Shown here piece after piece: positions 30,801 through 44,304 of a stretch of 44,304 nucleotides of DNA (position 1 is its first letter; each line of letters begins with the position of its first letter). Source of the stretch: Gammaproteobacteria bacterium (GTDB lineage: Bacteria > Pseudomonadota > Gammaproteobacteria > GCA-001735895); assembly GCA_030066085.1 (NCBI GenBank), contig JASJCI010000003.1, positions 1 to 44,304 of the forward strand, in the 5' to 3' direction. The notes under the pieces were generated by a model that was given only the letters and a program-made list of their open reading frames with translations, searched no databases and was not told where the DNA came from. The position numbers and the translations under genes were made by a program.

Positions 30801-31913
30801 ATGAGAATCGAAGACGATATCAAGCTCGACTACAAGGACGTCCTGATCCGGCCGAAACGCAGCACGCTCGGCAGTCGCAAGGATGTCGAACTGGAACGCG
30901 AGTACAGCTTTCGCAATTACCAGGGGCAGCGCGAAATCCACTATCGCGGCATCCCGATCATGGCCTCGAACATGGACGGCGTGGGCACCTTCGAAATGGC
31001 CGACCGGCTGGCCGGGCTCGGCCTGTTCACCTGCCTGGTGAAAAACTACGACGCCGAGGCCCTGATCGGTTTTTTCGCGGCGGGACAACCGGCGCGGCGG
31101 GAAAACGTGGCCTATTCGACCGGCATTACCGAGCAGGACTATGCCAAGTTCGAATCCGTCTACGAGCGCACCGGCCGGGGACTGAAATACGTCTGCGTCG
31201 ACGTCGCCAACGGTTATTCCGAACGTTTTTCCGAGTTCATCAAGCACCTGCGCGAGGCGTATCCCGCGATCGTCATCATCGCCGGCAACGTCGTCACCGG
31301 CGAAATGACGGAAGAACTGATCCTGAGCGGCGCCGATATCGTCAAGGTCGGTATCGGCCCGGGCAGCGTCTGCACCACGCGTATTCAGACCGGCGTCGGT
31401 TTTCCGCAGCTGTCGGCGGTCATCGAATGTGCCGACGCGGCGCACGGCCTCGGTGGACATATCATTGCCGACGGCGGCTGCACCTGCGCCGGCGACCTGG
31501 CCAAGGCCTTTGCCGCCGGCGCCGACTATGTCATGCTCGGCGGCATGCTCGCCGGCCACGACGAGGGCGGCGGCGAAATCATCACGCGGCACTACCGCAC
31601 CGGGGAAGTCAGGGCGGTCGACGACGGCTGGGATGACGTCATCGAGGAACGCAAGTTCGTCAATTTTTACGGTATGAGTTCGCGCGCGGCCAACGAAAAA
31701 CACTTCGGCGGACTCAAGGAGTACCGCTCCTCCGAGGGGCGCGAAATCCTGGTACCCTACCGCGGCCGGATCGAGCATACCATCCAGGACCTGCTGGGCG
31801 GCATCCGCAGCACCTGCACCTATGCCGGCGCCAAGAAGCTGAAGTGGCTGTCGAAGTGCACCACCTTCGTCCGCACCGCCGAGCAATTCAACAAGGTCTT
31901 CGCCGACCACTGA
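30801..31913 (+). CDS. guaC: GMP reductase
   Basis: The ATG at 30801 gives 370 residues; E. coli GuaC has 347. The IMPDH/GMPR fold is clear: [18 protein letters not shown] at the N-terminus, [17 protein letters not shown], the catalytic loop [20 protein letters not shown] with C191, and [11 protein letters not shown]. There are no CBS domains, and [20 protein letters not shown] near the C-terminus is of the GMPR type. The enzyme reduces GMP to IMP with NADPH, recovering guanine for adenine nucleotides. Extension upstream to 30720 would add a non-conserved sequence. A TATAGT at 30715-30720 could be a -10, without a convincing -35. It is divergent from the HAD gene. Confidence 0.95.
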
Positions 31914-32014
31914 GGATAAATCGGCTCTCACCGGGTCTTGCTGGCACCGGCCAATCCTTCAGATCAAGACAGTCGGCGAAATTTGGCGGGCATGGCGTTT
32001 TCGCCTTGCAGGGG

Positions 32015-32194
32015 TTTCCCGCGGAGGGCGCGGAGGGGCAGAGAGCGCTGAGGATCGAAAGGTAATACCGTACCGACAACGCGCGGGAATTCGGCTTTGA
32101 CGCCAATCCCCGGCTGCCGTTTAAACAAAAGACACGCCGCCAGGTAAAAGCTCCGCGGTCTCAGCGGCACTGCGCGACAGCGCCCCTGCGGGAA
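32015..32194. repeat. Inverted-repeat-bounded intergenic element, unit 3
   Basis: The left end TTTCCCGCGGAGGGCGC (32015-32031) is mirrored by GCGCCCCTGCGGGAA at 32180-32194. The interior starts with GGAGG/GCAGAG/GCGCTGAGGA motifs and carries no credible gene. It occupies most of the 300-base gap between the convergent guaC and oxidoreductase genes (31914-32213); I see nothing else there. Confidence 0.7.
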
Positions 32195-32213
32195 CCTGCC
32201 GTTTGTCAGGCCG

Positions 32214-34343
32214 CTAGTTGCGGCGCCAGGCGTGGAAGCGGCCGATCCATTCGAGCAGACCTTGCGGTGCGTGCGCGCGTTTCCACTCGCCGGCGGCATA
32301 CTTGTTGGCCTCGGCCAGCGTCGGGTAGATATGGATCGTGCCGAGGATCTTGTTCAGCCCCAGGCCGTGCTTCATCGCCAGCACGTACTCGGCAATCAGG
32401 TCACCGGCGTGTTCGCCGACGATCGTGACGCCGAGAATGCGGTCCTTACCCGGTGCCGTCAGCACCTTGACGAAGCCGTGGGCCTCGCTGTCGGCAATGG
32501 CGCGATCGAGGTCGTCGATACCGAAGGTCGTAACCTCGTGTTCGATTCCCTGTTCCTTCGCCTCGGTTTCGTTGAGGCCGACGCGCGCGATTTCGGGCTC
32601 GGTAAAAGTTGCCCACGGAATGACCGAGTAGTCGACCTTGAAACGCTTGATGATACCGAACAGCGAATTGACCGACGTGTACCAGGCCTGGTGGGCACCG
32701 ACGTGGGTAAACTGGTAGGGCCCGACCACGTCGCCGGCGGCGTATATCGTCGGGATGCTGGTTTGCAGAAACTCGTTGACCTCGATGGTGCCGTTCGGGT
32801 TCAGGCGCACGCCCAGCTCCTCGAGTCCGAAACCGCTGGTACGCGGACGGCGACCGACCGCGACGATCAGCGTATCGAACTCGATTTCGATCTCGCCGTC
32901 GTCGTGCTCGGCAATCAGGAAATCCCTGCCGTCGCGCTTGACGAACTGTTTGGCGCGGTGCCCGGTCAACACCCGGATACCCTCGGCTTCGAATTGACTG
33001 CGCACCAGGTCGGAGATTTCCGGGTCTTCGCGCAACAGGATGCGCGGCAGCATCTCTACCTGGGTAACCTCGACGCCGAGGCGGCCGAACGCCTGGGTCA
33101 GCTCCGAGCCGATCGGACCGCCGCCGAGTACCGCCAGCTTTTGCGGCTTGCGGCGCAGCTCCCACAGGTTGTCCGAGGTGTAGTAGTCGACCTGCTCGAT
33201 GCCGTCGATCGGCGGCACGAAGGGCTGACCACCGCTGGCGACGACGATGTTGCGCGTGCGGATGGTTTCGCCGTTGACCTCGACGGTCCACGGCGAGGTA
33301 ATGCGTGCCTCGCCCTCTACCACGTCGACGCCGAGACCGGTATAACGTTCGACCGAATCGTGCGGCTCGATTTTCTTGATGACCTGCTGTACCCGCTGCA
33401 TGACCTCGGCAAAGTCGAAATCGGCACTGGCTTCCTTGATACCGAATTCCTTGCTGCGGGTGATATGCGACATGAACTTGGCCGAGCGGATGATGGCCTT
33501 GGACGGCACGCAACCGAAGTTGAGACAGTCGCCGCCCATCTTGTGTTTTTCGATCAGGGTCACTTTCGCCTTGACCGCGGCCGCGATATAGGCCGTGACC
33601 AGGCCGGCCGAACCCGCGCCGATCACGACCAGGTTGGTATCGAAAGCCGACGGTTTGCTGAAGCCGGCCAGCGCCTTGCGGCTGGCGATGATCGACAGGG
33701 CCTTGCGGGCGATGAACGGCAAGATCGCCAGCAGCACGAACGACAGGACGATCTCGACACTGAAAATTCCCGAGGCCGACTCGATTTGCGCCAGCTGGGT
33801 GCCCGCGTTGACGTAGACCACGGTGCCGGCGAACATGCCGACCTGGCTGACCCAGAAAAATGTCCACAGGCGCAGCGTCGTCAGGCCCATGACCAGGTTG
33901 ATCACGAAAAACGGGAATGCGGGCACCAGGCGCAGTGCAAACAGGTAGAAGGCACCATCCTTGTCGATGCCGGCGTTGATTGCCTGCAGATTCGCGCCGA
34001 AGCGCGACTGCACCGTGTCGCGCAGCAGGTAACGCGACAGCAGAAACGCCAGCGAGGCACCGATGGTACTGGCAAAAGACACCAGGATCAGGCCCGTGAC
34101 CAGGCCGAAGATGCCGCCGGCCGCGAGCGTCAGCACCGCCGCGCCCGGCAGGGATGCGCCGGTAATGACCACGTAAACCACGAAGAATCCGAGCAGGGTC
34201 AGCACGCGGTTTTGCTGGTAATACTCGTCGATTTGCTGCTGCTGGCTCTTGATGTACTCCAGCGTCAGGAACTGGCCCAGGTCGAACTGGAAGAACAGCA
34301 AGACAACTAGCGCCAACACTGCCACGAGTACTATTTTTTTCAT
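32214..34343 (-). CDS. Fusion of VTT (TMEM64/DedA-like) membrane domain and flavin disulfide oxidoreductase
   Basis: The 709-residue protein has an N-terminal membrane half (segments at about 4-20, 48-66, 70-105, 132-152, 162-180, 195-215) with the TVP38/TMEM64 pattern GASLPGAAVLTLAAGGIFG and FALRLVPAFPFFVINL. A short linker leads to a complete class I pyridine nucleotide-disulfide reductase: FAD motif GAGSAG (242-247), redox pair C273/C278 in DCLNFGCVPSK, NAD(P) motif GGGPIGSE, second FAD motif YAAGDVVG. The C-terminal dimer motif is HIYPTLAE: Tyr673 stands where dihydrolipoamide dehydrogenase has its catalytic His. The enzyme part resembles mercuric reductases but has no HMA domain. The substrate is unknown; membrane-anchored thiol or quinone redox work is an inference. 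Confidence 0.92.
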   Translation of the reverse strand: MKKIVLVAVLALVVLLFFQFDLGQFLTLEYIKSQQQQIDEYYQQNRVLTLLGFFVVYVVITGASLPGAAVLTLAAGGIFGLVTGLILVSFASTIGASLAFLLSRYLLRDTVQSRFGANLQAINAGIDKDGAFYLFALRLVPAFPFFVINLVMGLTTLRLWTFFWVSQVGMFAGTVVYVNAGTQLAQIESASGIFSVEIVLSFVLLAILPFIARKALSIIASRKALAGFSKPSAFDTNLVVIGAGSAGLVTAYIAAAVKAKVTLIEKHKMGGDCLNFGCVPSKAIIRSAKFMSHITRSKEFGIKEASADFDFAEVMQRVQQVIKKIEPHDSVERYTGLGVDVVEGEARITSPWTVEVNGETIRTRNIVVASGGQPFVPPIDGIEQVDYYTSDNLWELRRKPQKLAVLGGGPIGSELTQAFGRLGVEVTQVEMLPRILLREDPEISDLVRSQFEAEGIRVLTGHRAKQFVKRDGRDFLIAEHDDGEIEIEFDTLIVAVGRRPRTSGFGLEELGVRLNPNGTIEVNEFLQTSIPTIYAAGDVVGPYQFTHVGAHQAWYTSVNSLFGIIKRFKVDYSVIPWATFTEPEIARVGLNETEAKEQGIEHEVTTFGIDDLDRAIADSEAHGFVKVLTAPGKDRILGVTIVGEHAGDLIAEYVLAMKHGLGLNKILGTIHIYPTLAEANKYAAGEWKRAHAPQGLLEWIGRFHAWRRN

Positions 34344-34396
34344 TTGTTATTTCTCATGCTATGTGATGGCTTCAGACGTCGTCCGGGGGACTTAGT

Positions 34397-35518
34397 TCAG
34401 CCACCCCGCCAACTTTTTGCCCACTCCAGCAGTTCGCTGTCGCTGCCCTCGAACACGACCCTCGGTTGCTTGAGCTCTTGCTGGTAGCGGTACATCGGGT
34501 CGTAATACTCTTCGAGCAACAGCCGAATACCGTCGGCGAAGCCGGCGTCCTCCCCGCTCTCGAACAGGCTTTCGAGGGCAGACTCGAACTGCCGCCGGAC
34601 CCGTGCGTAACGTTCACCCCCCAGGCGTTTGCGTATTCGTGCCAGATTATCGAGCACATAGCAACTGAATTGCGCGCGCGCCTCCACACCGTGGGCCCGC
34701 CGATACGCCGGCCAGGCGTGCTCCACGTAGTCCTCGCGTATGAGCTCTACCCGTTGCTCGACGGGCGCGCGCAGGATGGCCCGCGGTGCGCGCAACAGCG
34801 CCGTGTAGAGGCTGTCAGGCATGTTGATCCGACCGATAAGGCGACCCTCGTCCTCGACGAACAGCGGTATGCCGGGATACTGCTCGCGGTGCCGCAGCAT
34901 CGCGATCGATACCGCGTTCTCCCAGTCGATCGTGCTCGGCTGCCGATCGAGCGGATCGCGGCCGAAGGCGGAACCGCGGTGGTTGGCCAGCCCCTCGAAG
35001 TCGACGTGGTGGCGAACCTGGCGTAACACCCGGGTTTTACCGCTGCCGGTCAGGCCGCCGATACAGACCAGTTGCAGCTCCGCCGCCGAACGCTCGAGGG
35101 CGTCGATCAGGAATCGCCGCATCGCCTTGTAACCACCGCGCACCAGCGGGTAGTCGATACCCTGCTCGCGCAGCCACTGTTGCGTCGTGCGCGAGCGCAG
35201 GCCACCGCGAAAACAGTAGACATAGCCATCGGGATGATCGCGACAGAATTCACTCCAGGCCGCCAGCCGCTGTGCACGTATCGCCGGCGTCGCGAGCTCG
35301 AGCCCGAGCCGGATCGCCTCGTCCTGGCCGGCCTGCTGGTAACGTTTGCCGATCGCCTCGCGCTGCGAATCGTCGAGCAGCGGCAGGTTGCGCGCGCCGG
35401 GGAAAGCACCCTGCGCAAATTCGACCGGCGCGCGCACGTCCATCAGCGGCACGTCGTCCAGGAACAGGCGGCGATAATCCTCGGTATCAGCGCGCAGCAC
35501 GGCCGCATCAGCTGCCAT
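34397..35518 (-). CDS. mnmH: tRNA 2-selenouridine synthase MnmH (SelU)
   Basis: The start ATG at 35518 gives 373 residues (E. coli 364). An N-terminal rhodanese domain carries the active cysteine C102 in YVYCFRGGLRSR. A P-loop domain has GLTGSGKT (155-162). The segment FVEDEGRLIGRINMPDSLY is characteristic of the family. MnmH converts 5-substituted 2-thiouridine at wobble position 34 of Lys, Glu and Gln tRNAs to 2-selenouridine, using selenophosphate, through a geranylated intermediate. It implies that the genome also has selD. The gene overlaps the end of rlmKL by 11 bases, so the two tRNA/rRNA modification genes are translationally coupled. Its start could not be further upstream without entering rlmKL. 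Confidence 0.95.
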   Translation of the reverse strand: MAADAAVLRADTEDYRRLFLDDVPLMDVRAPVEFAQGAFPGARNLPLLDDSQREAIGKRYQQAGQDEAIRLGLELATPAIRAQRLAAWSEFCRDHPDGYVYCFRGGLRSRTTQQWLREQGIDYPLVRGGYKAMRRFLIDALERSAAELQLVCIGGLTGSGKTRVLRQVRHHVDFEGLANHRGSAFGRDPLDRQPSTIDWENAVSIAMLRHREQYPGIPLFVEDEGRLIGRINMPDSLYTALLRAPRAILRAPVEQRVELIREDYVEHAWPAYRRAHGVEARAQFSCYVLDNLARIRKRLGGERYARVRRQFESALESLFESGEDAGFADGIRLLLEEYYDPMYRYQQELKQPRVVFEGSDSELLEWAKSWRGG

Positions 35519-37685
35519 GACGCAGCTCCCAGCACTGGTGTATCTGCGGCCGGCGGCGGAAATCCTCGTCGATGGTCGAGCGCGTGATATCGCTTGGCGC
35601 GTAGCGCTCGGCCAGCGTCGGATCGAGCCGGAAGCCGCGCCGGTTGGTCGAGAACAGCAGCAGGCCATCGGCGCGCAGAAGGCGCATCGCGCCGTCGATC
35701 AGCGCAACATGATCGCGCTGCACGTCGAGCGCCCGCGCCATCGCGCTGGAGTTGGAAAACGATGGTGGATCGAGGAATACCAGGTCGAACTCCGGTTGCA
35801 GGCCAAACCTGGCCGGATTGTGCAATAACTCCAGCACATCGGCACGTAAAAACTGGTAACGCGCTTCGTCTTCGAGACCGTTGAGGCTGAAATTTTCCTC
35901 GGCCCAGCGCAGGTACCCGGCCGACAGGTCGACGTTGACCACGCTCGCGGCACCACCCAGCGCGGCCAATACGCCGACGCTGCCGGTGTAACAAAACAGG
36001 TTGAGCAGGCGCTTGCCGCGTGCTTCGCGGAACAGGCGCGCACGCAACGGGCGGTGGTCCAGGAACAGGCCGGAATCGAGGTAATCGGCGAGGTTGATCA
36101 GCAGGCGCGCCTCGCCCTCGCGTACTTGCAGCAGCTCGCGCCGATCGTTCTGTCGCTGGTACTGGTCACGCCCGCGCTGCCGCTGGCGGGTCTTGGTATA
36201 AACATGGCCTGCATCGGCGCCGAACACCTGCCGCACGCAGGCCTGCGCCAGCTCCAGGCGCCGTGCCGCCAGCGCGGCATCGATACTCGCCGGTGCGCGG
36301 TATTCCTGCAGGTGGTACCAGGCCTCGTCCGCATCGAGCGCGCTGCGATAGACATCCAGGGCAAACGCGAACTCCGGCAGGTCCGCGTCGTAGATCCGGT
36401 AACAGTCGATGCCGTTGCGCCGCGCCCAGCGCTCGAGGTGGCGAGCGTTCTTGCGCAGGCGGTTTAACAGCGGGTCGGCCGTGGACGGCAATTGGGCCGC
36501 GTGCGCGTCATCGTCGGCGTCGACGGGCTGCGCATCGGTCACGTAGGTCGCCAGCAGGCAGTCGAGCGGACCGTTCCTGACGTCCTTGCGTTCGAGCCGG
36601 GTCATTTCGAGCCTGTGCAGCAGGTCCGGATTGGCCGAAATCAGCACCAGCCGCGCCGGTCGATGGCGCCGCAGGCACTCGCCCAGGTCCTGGTACAGGT
36701 TGGCCAGGCCCTGCTCCGCCTGCAGGCGCTGGCCCCACGGCGGATTGGTGACCACCAGTGTCTCGCGCTCGTCGGCGGGCAGCTGCAGGTCGGCCAGCTG
36801 CGCGTGTTCAAAGCGGACCAGGTCGGCGACCCCCGCGCGCTCGGCGTTGGCGCGCGCGATCGCCAGCACCCCGGCATCGCTGTCGCTGGCGAATATAGCG
36901 CAGCCAGGCGCCGCGCGGATACGTTCGCGGGCCGTCTCGAGACAGTGCCGCCAGCGCGCGGCATCATGCTGACGCCAGCCGAGAAAGCCGTAGTAGTCCC
37001 GTGTCAGACCCGGCGCCCGGTCACTCGCAATCAGCGCGGCCTCGATCGCGAAGGTACCCGAACCGCACAGCGGATCGAGCATTCGTCCGCGCGCCGCGGA
37101 TTCGCGCTCCCAGCCGGCCTGGCGCAGGATCGCCGCCGCCAGGTGCTCCTTCAGCGGCGCACCGCCGTGCTCGGTGCGATAGCCGCGCCGATGCAGGCTC
37201 TCGCCCGACAGGTCGAGGCTGATTCGCGCCTGGTCGCGGTGGATATGCACATGGACCTGCAGGTCGGGACGTCGCGGTTGCACACGCGGCCTTTCGCCGG
37301 TCGCGGCGCGAAACTGGTCGACGATGGCATCCTTGGTCTTCTGCGCGACGAAGCGCGTGTGCCGCAGCCGGGAGCTCGACAGGCTTGCGTTGACCGCGAT
37401 ACTGTCGCGCGCACGCAGGTGCCGGCTCCAGTCGATCGCCGCTACCGCGTCGTAGAGACCGGCCTCGTCTGCGGCGCGCCCGCGCGCCAGTTCGCAGAAA
37501 ACCCGGTTGGCCAGCCGCGAATACAGGCAGATCGCGTACACGGCCTCGAGATCGCCTTCGATTTCGAGCCCGCCGTAGACCTTGGTCGGCGCGAGCTCGA
37601 GCCCGGCCAGGATCTCCCTGATTTCGTGCAGCAGGGCCGTTTCGAAGCCCTTGTGCCCGGTAACGAACAGACTGTACTTGTGCAT
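35508..37685 (-). CDS. rlmL: Bifunctional 23S rRNA methyltransferase RlmKL
   Basis: The product is 725 residues (E. coli RlmKL 702). The N-terminal half, RlmL, has a THUMP domain (about 45-160), the SAM motif DPLCGSGTFAIEAAL near 204 and the catalytic NPPWG at 314-318, where E. coli has NPPYG. The C-terminal half, RlmK, has RPLRARLFREARGKRLLNLF, CYTGSVGVLAA and LVFLDPPSFSNS. Together they make m2G2445 and m7G2069 in 23S rRNA. The fused form is typical of gammaproteobacteria. The stop overlaps the start of mnmH. The gene is divergent from the DUF1631 gene, with 168 bases between the starts. Confidence 0.95.
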   Translation of the reverse strand: MHKYSLFVTGHKGFETALLHEIREILAGLELAPTKVYGGLEIEGDLEAVYAICLYSRLANRVFCELARGRAADEAGLYDAVAAIDWSRHLRARDSIAVNASLSSSRLRHTRFVAQKTKDAIVDQFRAATGERPRVQPRRPDLQVHVHIHRDQARISLDLSGESLHRRGYRTEHGGAPLKEHLAAAILRQAGWERESAARGRMLDPLCGSGTFAIEAALIASDRAPGLTRDYYGFLGWRQHDAARWRHCLETARERIRAAPGCAIFASDSDAGVLAIARANAERAGVADLVRFEHAQLADLQLPADERETLVVTNPPWGQRLQAEQGLANLYQDLGECLRRHRPARLVLISANPDLLHRLEMTRLERKDVRNGPLDCLLATYVTDAQPVDADDDAHAAQLPSTADPLLNRLRKNARHLERWARRNGIDCYRIYDADLPEFAFALDVYRSALDADEAWYHLQEYRAPASIDAALAARRLELAQACVRQVFGADAGHVYTKTRQRQRGRDQYQRQNDRRELLQVREGEARLLINLADYLDSGLFLDHRPLRARLFREARGKRLLNLFCYTGSVGVLAALGGAASVVNVDLSAGYLRWAEENFSLNGLEDEARYQFLRADVLELLHNPARFGLQPEFDLVFLDPPSFSNSSAMARALDVQRDHVALIDGAMRLLRADGLLLFSTNRRGFRLDPTLAERYAPSDITRSTIDEDFRRRPQIHQCWELRHGS

Positions 37686-40591: not shown

Positions 40592-41833
40592 TCAGACGCC
40601 GAGCATCAGGCGCGCCGGATCCTCGAGCAGGTTCTTGATCGTCACCAGGAACTGTACCGCTTCGCGACCATCGATGATCCGGTGGTCGTAGGTCAGCGCG
40701 ACGTACATCATCGGCCGCACCACGATTTCGCCATCGATGACAACCGGGCGCTGCTGGATCGCGTGCATGCCGAGGATCGCGGATTGCGGCGGATTGAGGA
40801 TCGGCGTCGACAGCATCGAGCCGAAAATACCGCCGTTGGTGATGCTGAAAGTGCCCCCGGTCAACTCTTCGATACCAAGCTTGCCGCTGCGCGCGCGTTC
40901 GCCCATGTCGCGGATAGACTGCTCGATTTCGGCGTAATTCATCTGGTCCGCGTCGCGCAGGATGGGCACCACCAGGCCGCGGTCCGAGCTGACCGCGATG
41001 CCGATGTCGAAATAGTCGTGGTACACGATATCGTCACCGTCGATCGAGGCGTTGACCGCGGGGAATCGTTTCAGGGCCTCTACCGCGGCCGCGGTGAAGA
41101 ACGACATCATGCCGAGTTTGACACCGTGGGTCTTTTCGAACAGATCGCGATAGCGGGCGCGCGTATCCATCATCGGCTGCAGGTTGATCTCGTTGAAGGT
41201 AGTCAACATCGCCGCGGTGTTCTGCGCCTCTTTCAGGCGCTCGGCGATCTTGGCGCGCAGGCGGCTCATCGGCACGCGGCGATCGTTACGCCCGGCACTC
41301 GGCATGATCGGCGCCGCCGGTGCGGCGGCTGGTGCCGGCGCGGCCTCGGCCGGCGGGGTTGATCGCAGGTACAGCTCGACGTCTTCCTTCGTGATTGCGC
41401 CCTTGCGCCCGGTCGGCTGCACGTCCTCGACGCTGAGGCCATGCTCGTTGAGCAGCTTGCGCACCGCCGGGCTGGCCTTGCCGTCACCCTCGGCAGCCGC
41501 CGGTGCCGGGGCCTCCGCCGCCGCGGCCGGGACGGCAGCCGGTGCCTCCGCCGGTGCCTCGGCGGGAGCCTCCGCCGCGGGCGCGGACGCGGTCGCCTCG
41601 GTGTTGATCACACCGAGTACGTCGCCGTTCTTGACGGTTGCGCCGCCCTCGAAGGCAATGGATTCGAGCACGCCGGCAGAGCTGGCGACAATTTCCAGCA
41701 CAACCTTGTCGGTTTCTAGATCGACCAGGTTTTCGTCGACCGCAACGGCGTCGCCGACCTGTTTGTGCCAGTCTCCCAGAGTCCCCTCGGTCACCGATTC
41801 CGGCAATACCGGGACCTTGATTTCTACCTGCAT
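40592..41833 (-). CDS. sucB: Dihydrolipoyl succinyltransferase, E2 of 2-oxoglutarate dehydrogenase
   Basis: The ATG at 41833 with GGGAG eight bases before it gives 413 residues (E. coli 405). The lipoyl domain (1-76) has the lipoylated K43 in [10 protein letters not shown]. An Ala/Pro/Glu-rich swinging linker (about 85-120) follows. The E3-binding domain (about 120-160) has [20 protein letters not shown]. The catalytic domain ends with H384 and D388 in [16 protein letters not shown]2 passes the succinyl group from lipoamide to CoA in the TCA cycle. It lies 23 bases downstream of sucA in one operon. The next gene should be lpd, but the repeat array follows instead, so E3 must be encoded elsewhere. 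Confidence 0.97.
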
Positions 41834-41856
41834 GCTCAACTCCCGTTGTTGATTTT

Positions 41857-44304
41857 TTACCTGTCGGTCCAGCGGGTCGGCGCGTAATCGGCCTCGAAAG
41901 CCTCCTGGATCAGCTGCGCTTCCTGTTCGAGGTGCAGCGACATGTAGCCCACGGCCGGCGATGCTGACGAAATCCGACCCGCGTATTGTACGCGGATCGG
42001 CGAGAAAATCTCGTTGAGGCGACTCTTGAACTCGCGGAAACAGCCCTGGTTGCGCGGCTCGTCCTGGCACCAGACGACGTTCCTGACGTTCGGATAACGT
42101 TCGTAAATTGCTTTCAGGTCGACCTTCGGGAACGGGTAGAGTTGTTCCAGGCGCACGATCGCGGCGTTGTGCCCGTATTTCTGCGCGCGGGTTTCGTAGA
42201 GCTTGTAGTAAATCTTGCCGCTACACAGGATCAGCCGGTCGACCTTGCTCTCGTCGATCTCGTCGATCTCGGGAATCACCTTCTGGAATTCACCCTCGCT
42301 GTAGGCCGACAGGGGTGAAACCGCGGCTTCGTGGCGCAGCAGGCTCTTGGGACTCATGACCACCAGCGGCTTGCGAAAGCCGCACATCATCTGGCTGCGC
42401 AACAGGTGGAATACCTGCGCCGGCAGGGTCGGCTGCACCACGCGCATGTTGTGCTGCGCGCAAAGCTCGAGGTAACGCTCGATACGCGCCGACGAGTGTT
42501 CCGGCCCCTGCCCCTCGTAGCCATGCGGTAACAGCATGACCACCCCGCTGAGGCGGCCCCACTTCATCTCGCCCGAGCTGATGAACTGGTCGATCACGAC
42601 CTGCGCGCCGTTGGCAAAGTCGCCGAACTGGGCCTCCCAGATTACCAGCGTGTTGGGATCGGTCGAGGCATAGCCGTATTCGAATGCGAGTACCGCTTCC
42701 TCCGACAGGAACGAATTGATGACCTCGAAGCGTGGCTGGTCGGGCGCGAGGTGCTTCAGCGGCTTGTAGATTTCACCGCTCTTGACGTCATGCAGCGCGG
42801 CATGCCGGTGGAAAAAGGTACCGCGTTCGCTGTCCTGCCCCGACAGGCGTACCCGGTAGCCATCGTTGAGCAGCGACGCGTAGGCCAGGTTTTCGGCGAA
42901 ACCCCAGTCGCCGGGCAATTCACCGGCGATCATCTTGTGGCGGTTGTCGTGAATCTTCGCCACCCGCGGATGCAGGCTGTAGCCCTCGGGCAGTTCGAGC
43001 ATGCGGCGACCGATCTGCTGGATGGTTTCGGCCTCGACCGCCGTTCCGGGAGTAATGTTGACGTCGCCGTCGTGCAGCGCCGCCCAGTCCCGCGCGGTAC
43101 TGGCCTCGAGCCCGGATATGACGTTCAGCGCCACCGCGCCGCCCTCTTCCAGCGCGCGCCGATAGTCGGCGATCATCTGGTCGACCTTTTCACGCGTGGT
43201 GAAGCCTTCCTCGATCAGGCGCTGCGAGTGCAGCTCGACCAGGCGCGGATGCTTGCGAATCCGGTCGTACATCAGCGGCTGGGTCACGGCCGGCTCGTCA
43301 GCCTCGTTGTGGCCGTGGCGCCGGTAACAGATCATGTCGATCACGACGTCGCTCTGGAAAGTCTCGCGATACTTGACCGCGATCTCGGCGATGAATACGC
43401 AGGCCTCGGGGTCGTCGCCATTGACGTGAAATATCGGTGCCTGCACCATGCGCGCGACCTCGGTGCAGTAGGTGCCGGAGCGCACGTCGCGCGGGTCGCT
43501 GGTGGTAAAGCCGATCTGGTTGTTGACGATGATGTGAATCGTGCCGCCGGTCTTGTAGCCGCGGGTCTGGCACATGTTGAAGGTTTCCATCACCACGCCC
43601 TGGCCGGCGAAGGCCGAGTCGCCGTGAATCAGCACCGGCAGCACGTCGTTGGTGGTGCGGTCATCGAACCGGCGCTGGCGCGCGCGCACCGAACCCTCGA
43701 CCACCGGATCAACGATTTCGAGGTGCGACGGATTGAACGCGAGCGCCATGTGCATCGGCCCGGAATCGGTGTAGATGTCCGACGAAAAACCCTGGTGGTA
43801 CTTGACGTCGTAGTTGTAGCGTTCGTTGAACTCGACCTTGCCCTCGAACTCGTCGAACAGGTCGCTCGGCATCTTGCCGAAGATATTGGTCAGCACGTTG
43901 AGTCGTCCGCGGTGCGCCATGCCGATAACGACCTCGTGGGTGCTGGTCACGCCGGCCTGCTGCACCACGCGGTCGAGGATCGGTATCAGCGACTCGCCGC
44001 CCTCGAGCGAAAATCGTTTCTGCCCGATGTAGCGCGTATGCAGGTATTTTTCCAGGTTCTCGGCGGCGATCACGCGATCGAGTATTCGATTGCGACGGCC
44101 CTCGCGGAAGCTGGGCCGGGCCAGCGAGGTCTCGAGCTGTACCTGCAGCCAGCGTTTGTGGGCGCGATCTTCCATGTGCATGTACTCGGAGCCGATCGTA
44201 CCGCAGTAAGTCTGTTCCAGCCGTTCGATGATTTCGCGCAGCGGGGCGTCTTCCACGCCGAACAGGGAGCCGGTGTTGAACACGGTGTCGAGATCGGCCT
44301 CGGT
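41857..44304 (-). CDS. sucA: 2-oxoglutarate dehydrogenase E1, 5' end beyond window
   Basis: The frame is open to the window edge and gives the C-terminal 815 residues of a protein of about 930-945. An internal GTG at 44283 is not the start, because E1 sequence (TEADLDT) continues above it. E1 landmarks include [37 protein letters not shown], the thiamine-diphosphate region [31 protein letters not shown] and [17 protein letters not shown]. The enzyme decarboxylates 2-oxoglutarate and succinylates the lipoyl group of SucB. It indicates a complete oxidative TCA cycle step, hence a respiratory organism. sucB follows after 23 bases. Confidence 0.97.

Follow-up and report, generated by a model that had tools for sequence, protein, structure and literature searches.

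In the flavin disulfide reductase superfamily, NAD(P)H reduces FAD, which in turn reduces a cysteine disulfide. The dithiols of enzymes of the mercuric reductase (MerA) type bind soft ions with a tyrosine of the partner subunit close by, and we take the two MerA tyrosines to be Tyr605 and Tyr264 of the Bacillus enzyme. ArsS, the product of the arsenosugar radical-SAM gene arsS, needs trivalent dimethylarsenic.

Reductase domains of this superfamily are also found joined to membrane proteins. In the available excerpt of an mBio article on DedA proteins from 2023 (PMC10127716), PF07992 and PF02852 are given as the most common fusions of COG0398. Proteins of this architecture are listed on plasmid records by NCBI under the product name "bifunctional TVP38/TMEM64 family protein/FAD-dependent oxidoreductase". 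Among the matches listed from the openly licensed literature, the titles, opening lines of abstracts, and excerpts contained no link between a VTT-reductase fusion and arsenosugars and no tested function for such a fusion.

Here, a gene of this kind was analyzed in a 44,304-nucleotide stretch of DNA (the window) from a Gammaproteobacteria bacterium (GenBank assembly GCA_030066085.1, contig JASJCI010000003.1). The encoded fusion belongs to a widespread family that has been catalogued before, and nothing in it is out of the ordinary for that family. The new lead, which we hold with moderate confidence, is the link of this family to arsenosugar genes.

Domain architecture of the fusion

A preliminary description, made from the sequence letters and the open reading frames (ORFs), had proposed that a VTT membrane domain of the TMEM64/DedA type is fused to a flavin disulfide reductase, and this architecture was borne out by Pfam hits above their cut-offs and by full-length relatives (Table 1). 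The 709-residue ORF, which starts with ATG in the ORF list of the window, can be taken as a real gene, chance being excluded by the full-length relatives together with class-wide matches. By residue count, neither Asp nor Glu occurs in residues 56-108, the first re-entrant stretch. Since the lack of acidic residues at this stretch is the criterion for COG0398 in the excerpt of PMC10127716, the VTT domain is assigned to the COG0398/TVP38-TMEM64 type.

A whole-protein model was predicted with AlphaFold2 from an alignment of 49 family members (mean pLDDT 84.8, pTM 0.74), and the VTT half was its weaker part. When the PDB was searched with Foldseek, the top 50 matches were all chains of lipoamide dehydrogenase (LpdH) and MerA, with TM values of ~0.9 by target length, and the matches span ~450-475 columns that correspond to the reductase half. 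The fusion is read here as a MerA/LpdH-superfamily flavin disulfide reductase that its VTT domain is predicted to anchor in the inner membrane. As had been noted from the letters, an HMA domain and a C-terminal Cys pair are both lacking: HMA is not among the 13 Pfam families reported in a search that included the fusion, and the C terminus reads ...FHAWRRN.

Table 1 Features of the fusion gene and its upstream neighbor (positions in the window)
Feature	Position	Strand	Evidence
VTT / flavin disulfide reductase fusion gene	32214..34343	(-)	709-aa ORF, Pfam, 53-82% identical full-length relatives
VTT domain, residues 69-182	33798..34139	(-)	PF09335 above cut-off; 79.9 bits vs 33.9
FAD/NAD(P)-binding domains, residues 237-553	32685..33635	(-)	PF07992 229.4 bits; Foldseek
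Dimerization domain, residues 575-683	32295..32621	(-)	PF02852 108.6 bits
Redox-active Cys pair C273-x4-C278	33510..33527	(-)	C at both positions in 123/123 family members
H671-I-Y673 of HIYPTLAE (671-678)	32325..32333	(-)	Structure-sequence alignments, column counts
mnmH (tRNA 2-selenouridine synthase), upstream neighbor	34397..35668	(-)	NF008751 462.9 bits vs cut-off 361

Active-site residues and family cut-offs

The CxxxxC pair had been read as intact, and its conservation throughout the family agrees with that reading. The placement of Tyr673 within HIYPTLAE, at the position of the LpdH His, was likewise numbered correctly. In HMMER alignments, Tyr673 falls opposite a Tyr in the mercuric reductases 5x1y (APYLTMAE) and 4k8d (FPYLTMVE), and opposite the His of HPTLSE in the LpdH 2eq6. 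When five references were aligned with MAFFT, the same column held Tyr in MerA and SthA and His in Lpd, Gor, and RclA. Among relatives, Tyr is present at this position in 122 of 123, the sole exception being clipped by a contig end. Judged by these alignments, Tyr673 is MerA-like and common to the family, not a departure from both known enzymes; because it aligns with the MerA Tyr, it gives no ground for setting the fusion apart from MerA.

Other positions differ from MerA. The MerA reference has a CC motif within its last 12 residues, and none of the 123 family members does. At the position of the second MerA Tyr, which belongs to KYEG, the fusion has V331, which lies inside a family motif P-H-D-S-x-x-R whose D329 and R333 are kept in 123/123. 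Residue E430 is Glu in 96 of 123 family members, as in Lpd, and Ala in the MerA reference. An acidic residue at this position favors NADH, which suggests that the fusion may prefer this cofactor.

The fusion missed the NCBIfam cut-offs for MerA (TIGR02053, 408.6 vs 454.45 bits), LpdH (TIGR01350, 401.3 vs 408.8 bits), RclA (NF040477, 229.3 vs 740), and hypothiocyanous acid reductase (NF041853, 251.6 vs 650). An ordinary MerA or LpdH is rejected on these cut-offs together with the residues (the missing C-terminal Cys pair, and Tyr in place of His). The preliminary description was thus correct as a description and mistaken in its key residue argument: its view that the protein is neither an ordinary LpdH nor an ordinary MerA stands on the missed cut-offs, the Tyr for His, and the absent Cys pair, but the Tyr cannot serve as proof against both enzymes because MerA shares it.

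Distribution of fused and split forms

In a search of the class in which at most three candidates were scored per genome, a family match at E ≤ 1e-60 was obtained in 257 of 369 genomes, and among the best 150 matches listed, 99 (in 98 genomes) span the full fused length. The plasmid copies listed are 53-61% identical to the fusion over the full length. Judging by record titles, relatives occur in Gamma-, Beta-, and Alphaproteobacteria, desulfo-bacteria, Nitrospina, and one Gemmatimonadetes bin. Fused and unfused members clustered together (SH-aLRT 99), separate from the references, in a tree of 99 rows, which took in 63 of 97 fused rows and the window copy; reference rows sat on long branches, and support for the placement between MerA and LpdH was weak (70).

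Unfused relatives were often accompanied by a separate VTT gene. It was overlapping or ≤ 123 bp away on the same strand in 12 of 26 (10 upstream, 2 downstream), and 347-2110 bp away in a further 6, once on the other strand. The fetched stretches of the other 8, two of which (L133 and L158) are near or cut by a contig end, contained no VTT gene, and no VTT remnant was found in these eight loci by tblastn. Among 15 unfused loci chosen without regard to arsS, the VTT gene adjoined the reductase in 8, in all cases upstream. The pairing of VTT and reductase parts is thus frequent but not universal.

The window locus and its genome

The window copy sits between rlmKL-mnmH and a convergent GMP reductase gene, without arsenosugar genes beside it. 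A gap of 53 bases separates the fusion from mnmH, which precedes it on the same strand, and rlmKL lies before mnmH. Because the NF008751 match begins at residue 60 of the mnmH product, the true start of mnmH is probably near 35491. Across 80 loci of relatives, mnmH was directly upstream of the fusion in only one (L040), which is the nearest relative of the window fusion and has a similar setting. A promoter scan of positions 31800-35700 found 0 where 0.7 was expected. About 6 kb from the fusion, the window also holds a 2-oxo-acid dehydrogenase E2 gene (40592-42070, minus strand), and the adjoining long ORF (41857-44283, minus strand) may be E1.

The arsS gene of this genome is located on contig C36 (C36:7893-8807), with a TIGR04283 gene directly after it and a TIGR04282 gene next. 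A second cluster is found on a short contig of the same genome (L123, G000:C68), where genes for DUF547 and DUF6436 proteins accompany those for a TIGR04283 glycosyltransferase, a radical SAM/SPASM protein, and a cyclase-like protein; the 6.6 kb of this contig contain no arsS. By tblastn, no relative of the fusion was present in the 20-kb stretch of C36 holding arsS, in the fetched C68 stretch, or in the arsS locus of a sister genome. Of the three candidates scored in this genome, only the window fusion matched at E ≤ 1e-60. In G154, which represents another genus of the same family, arsS was present and no fused match was found.

Gene neighborhoods of relatives

In order to compare neighborhoods, ORFs were clustered in 87 loci, comprising 80 picked by sequence similarity alone, six plasmid stretches, and the window. 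Flanks extended up to 8 kb per locus (shorter at contig ends), and each cluster was annotated from one representative, not from each member. DUF547 and the arsenosugar markers were the most frequent of the annotated clusters: DUF547 was found in 28 of the 80 loci, arsS in 23 (in 20 of these on the strand of the fusion), TIGR04283 in 17, and TIGR04282 in 15, with any of ArsS, TIGR04283, and TIGR04282 in 31. A PhnC-like ABC ATPase was present in 15 of 80, and ArsM and MnmH in 4 of 80 each. No arsS was present in the flanks of 57 of 80 loci, although contig ends clip several of these, and neither arsenosugar markers nor DUF547 occurred in 32 of 80.

Several loci had the arsenosugar genes in direct succession, with the orders arsS-fusion-DUF547-TIGR04283 (L112), arsS-fusion-DUF547-TIGR04283-TIGR04282-methyltransferase (L035), and arsS-fusion-TIGR04283-TIGR04282 (L087); L085 and L101 carried the same arsenosugar genes with others interspersed. 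The environmental strain Methylomonas sp. LW13 (L055) likewise has arsS and the fusion within a single cluster. Unfused relatives lay 25-194 bp from arsS in L130-L135, loci that were selected for that nearness. Beside some relatives, a PhnC-like ABC transporter and a CDP-alcohol phosphatidyltransferase were found, with no arsS in the stretch shown.

On plasmids, genes for DUF2282, DUF692, DNA-binding-domain, and DoxX proteins were located directly before the fusion (L034:5168-7655 and L039:5476-7891). This set resembles copper-buffering RiPP (bufferin) operons, and L039 additionally holds both arsenosugar glycosyltransferases. A cluster of proteins of ~391 residues (c6, e.g., L094:6525-7697), whose representative had no Pfam or NCBIfam match, occurred in 14 of 80 loci; it was directly upstream of the fusion in 9, and 9 of the 14 loci had arsenosugar markers. 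A DUF3047 protein (e.g., L085:12307-13155) was encoded in 12 of the 80 loci, and arsenosugar markers accompanied it in 8 of these.

Association with arsS

ArsS was present in 183 of the 369 genomes of the class. Counted over the best 150 matches listed per search, and only in genomes with a listed ArsS match, 28 of 98 family reductases were located ≤ 6 kb from ArsS, compared with 0 of 81 LpdH (Fisher 7e-9, with kinship ignored). The corresponding figure for fused full-length reductases was 12 of 61 (against the same 0 of 81, Fisher 2e-5, kinship again ignored). Of the 28 linked reductases, 15 were ≤ 320 bp from ArsS.

ArsS also co-occurred with the fusion, being found in 74 of 98 fused genomes and 109 of 271 others, where fused genomes beyond the best 150 matches listed were counted as without a fusion. 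With one genome taken per family, the sole correction for kinship, the proportions were 32 of 43 fused and 52 of 115 others (p = 0.0012). No ArsS match at E ≤ 1e-40 was present in 24 of the 98 fused genomes. Mapping the presence of arsS onto an 81-sequence tree required at least 14 changes (shuffled mean 19.5), which is only mild clustering; the link is therefore either old and often lost, or re-formed.

Proposed function

Tentatively, and at somewhat less than even probability, we propose that the fusion works at the membrane, where it would use NAD(P)H to reduce soft metalloid species, among which organoarsenicals are the likeliest. The gene neighborhoods of relatives are the basis on which the substrate may be placed among the organoarsenicals. 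From superfamily chemistry, NAD(P)H would reduce FAD, and FAD would reduce the C273-C278 disulfide. The C273/C278 dithiol and the nearby Tyr673 of the partner subunit would then bind and reduce a thiophilic substrate, as in MerA. In much of the family, this substrate would most likely be pentavalent dimethylarsenic, made trivalent before ArsS adenosylates it; alternatively, it could be an arsenosugar or arsenolipid intermediate at the membrane. In the genome of the window, where arsS is on another contig, the fusion would serve the arsenosugar locus in trans.

Because ArsS depends on the trivalent form of its substrate, an aerobic cell would need a reductase, and a membrane-held MerA-like enzyme would fit. 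In its most specific form, which we consider rather unlikely, the proposal would make the VTT-reductase family the source of a reductase missing from the arsenosugar/arsenolipid pathway. Held at the membrane and dependent on NADH or NADPH, this enzyme would maintain the trivalent state of dimethylarsenic, or of an arsenosugar lipid precursor, for use by ArsS by means of its MerA-like Cys pair and Tyr, and it would do without a C-terminal Cys pair since its ligand would arrive as an organoarsenic thiol and not as Hg(II).

The role might instead be broader. A general membrane-associated reductase for thiol or soft-metal stress (copper, gold, HOCl-type, mixed thiol disulfides), for which the arsenosugar genes would be one module of several, is possible though doubtful. 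It is kept alive by the ABC transporter/CDP-alcohol phosphatidyltransferase and DUF2282/DUF692/DoxX contexts, and it draws further on ECF sigma factors and carboxymuconolactone-decarboxylase-family genes (each in 11 of 87 loci), on a peroxiredoxin-like gene in the neighborhood of a relative, and on the tie of COG0398 to aerobic metabolism in the excerpt of PMC10127716. It is opposed by DUF547 and the arsenosugar markers being the most frequent of the annotated clusters, by the His of the RclA reference, and by scores under the RclA and hypothiocyanous acid reductase cut-offs. The preliminary description had suggested that the substrate may be lipid-soluble, and a reductase acting on a quinone, a membrane thiol, or an arsenosugar phospholipid presented or flipped by the VTT domain is unlikely in our estimate. 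The fusion or adjacency of the reductase to a VTT domain speaks for such an enzyme, as do CDP-alcohol phosphatidyltransferase and fatty-acid hydroxylase genes (in 7 and 8 of 87 loci, respectively), whereas the VTT domain is seemingly dispensable in the part of the family where the fetched stretch held no VTT gene (8 of 26 unfused relatives, two near or cut by a contig end). Set against a generic lipid-soluble substrate, the gene neighborhoods may point to organoarsenical chemistry, possibly of arsenolipids.

That the protein is a true mercuric reductase in which the C-terminal Cys pair was lost or replaced is very improbable. The Cys pair and Tyr are as in MerA, the TIGR02053 score is 408.6 bits, and one of five MerR-like hits (an ORF in L082) reached 66% identity; yet the score is under the cut-off, the C-terminal CC is absent throughout the family, and V331 replaces the second Tyr. 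BLAST of the loci gave neither a MerT nor a MerP match at E ≤ 1e-10, and identity was 29-44% for the four remaining MerR-like hits. A part in selenium metabolism jointly with the neighboring MnmH is scarcely credible. Apart from the close same-strand spacing of mnmH and fusion, repeated directly upstream in L040, it could appeal to a DedA protein linked to selenite that is cited in the excerpt of PMC10470534, but the link was rejected because mnmH is near the fusion in just 4 of 80 loci, and mnmH is no part of the proposed function.

The repeatable link of the family to arsenosugar genes offers a substrate class open to direct testing and has implications for the bacterial synthesis of arsenosugars and arsenolipids. 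It also gives bacterial pathway context to the COG0398 VTT proteins, which are relatives of human TMEM41B and TMEM64.

Comparison with known systems

The fusion resembles MerA in its CxxxxC motif, in the Tyr at the position of the LpdH His, and in fold. Unlike MerA, it lacks the C-terminal Cys pair and the HMA domain, has V331 for the second Tyr, carries E430, and has an added VTT domain. With LpdH it shares the fold, the CxxxxC motif, the first His (H671), Glu678, and E430; it differs in that Tyr replaces the catalytic His, so that the dyad position reads Tyr673-Glu678 where the Lpd reference has His. The RclA reference of E. coli is unlike the fusion in having His, not Tyr, at the column of residue 673. 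The same two components occur as two genes in Sinorhizobium meliloti, where SMc01718 (TVP38/TMEM64) is listed next to merA1 in a table of the excerpt of PMC12445080, a likeness drawn from the table entry. The closest counterpart is the family of bifunctional TVP38/TMEM64 family protein/FAD-dependent oxidoreductases named by NCBI, whose members align with the fusion from end to end and carry both domains in the same order, and from which the fusion of the window differs in nothing notable except its uncommon neighborhood beside mnmH.
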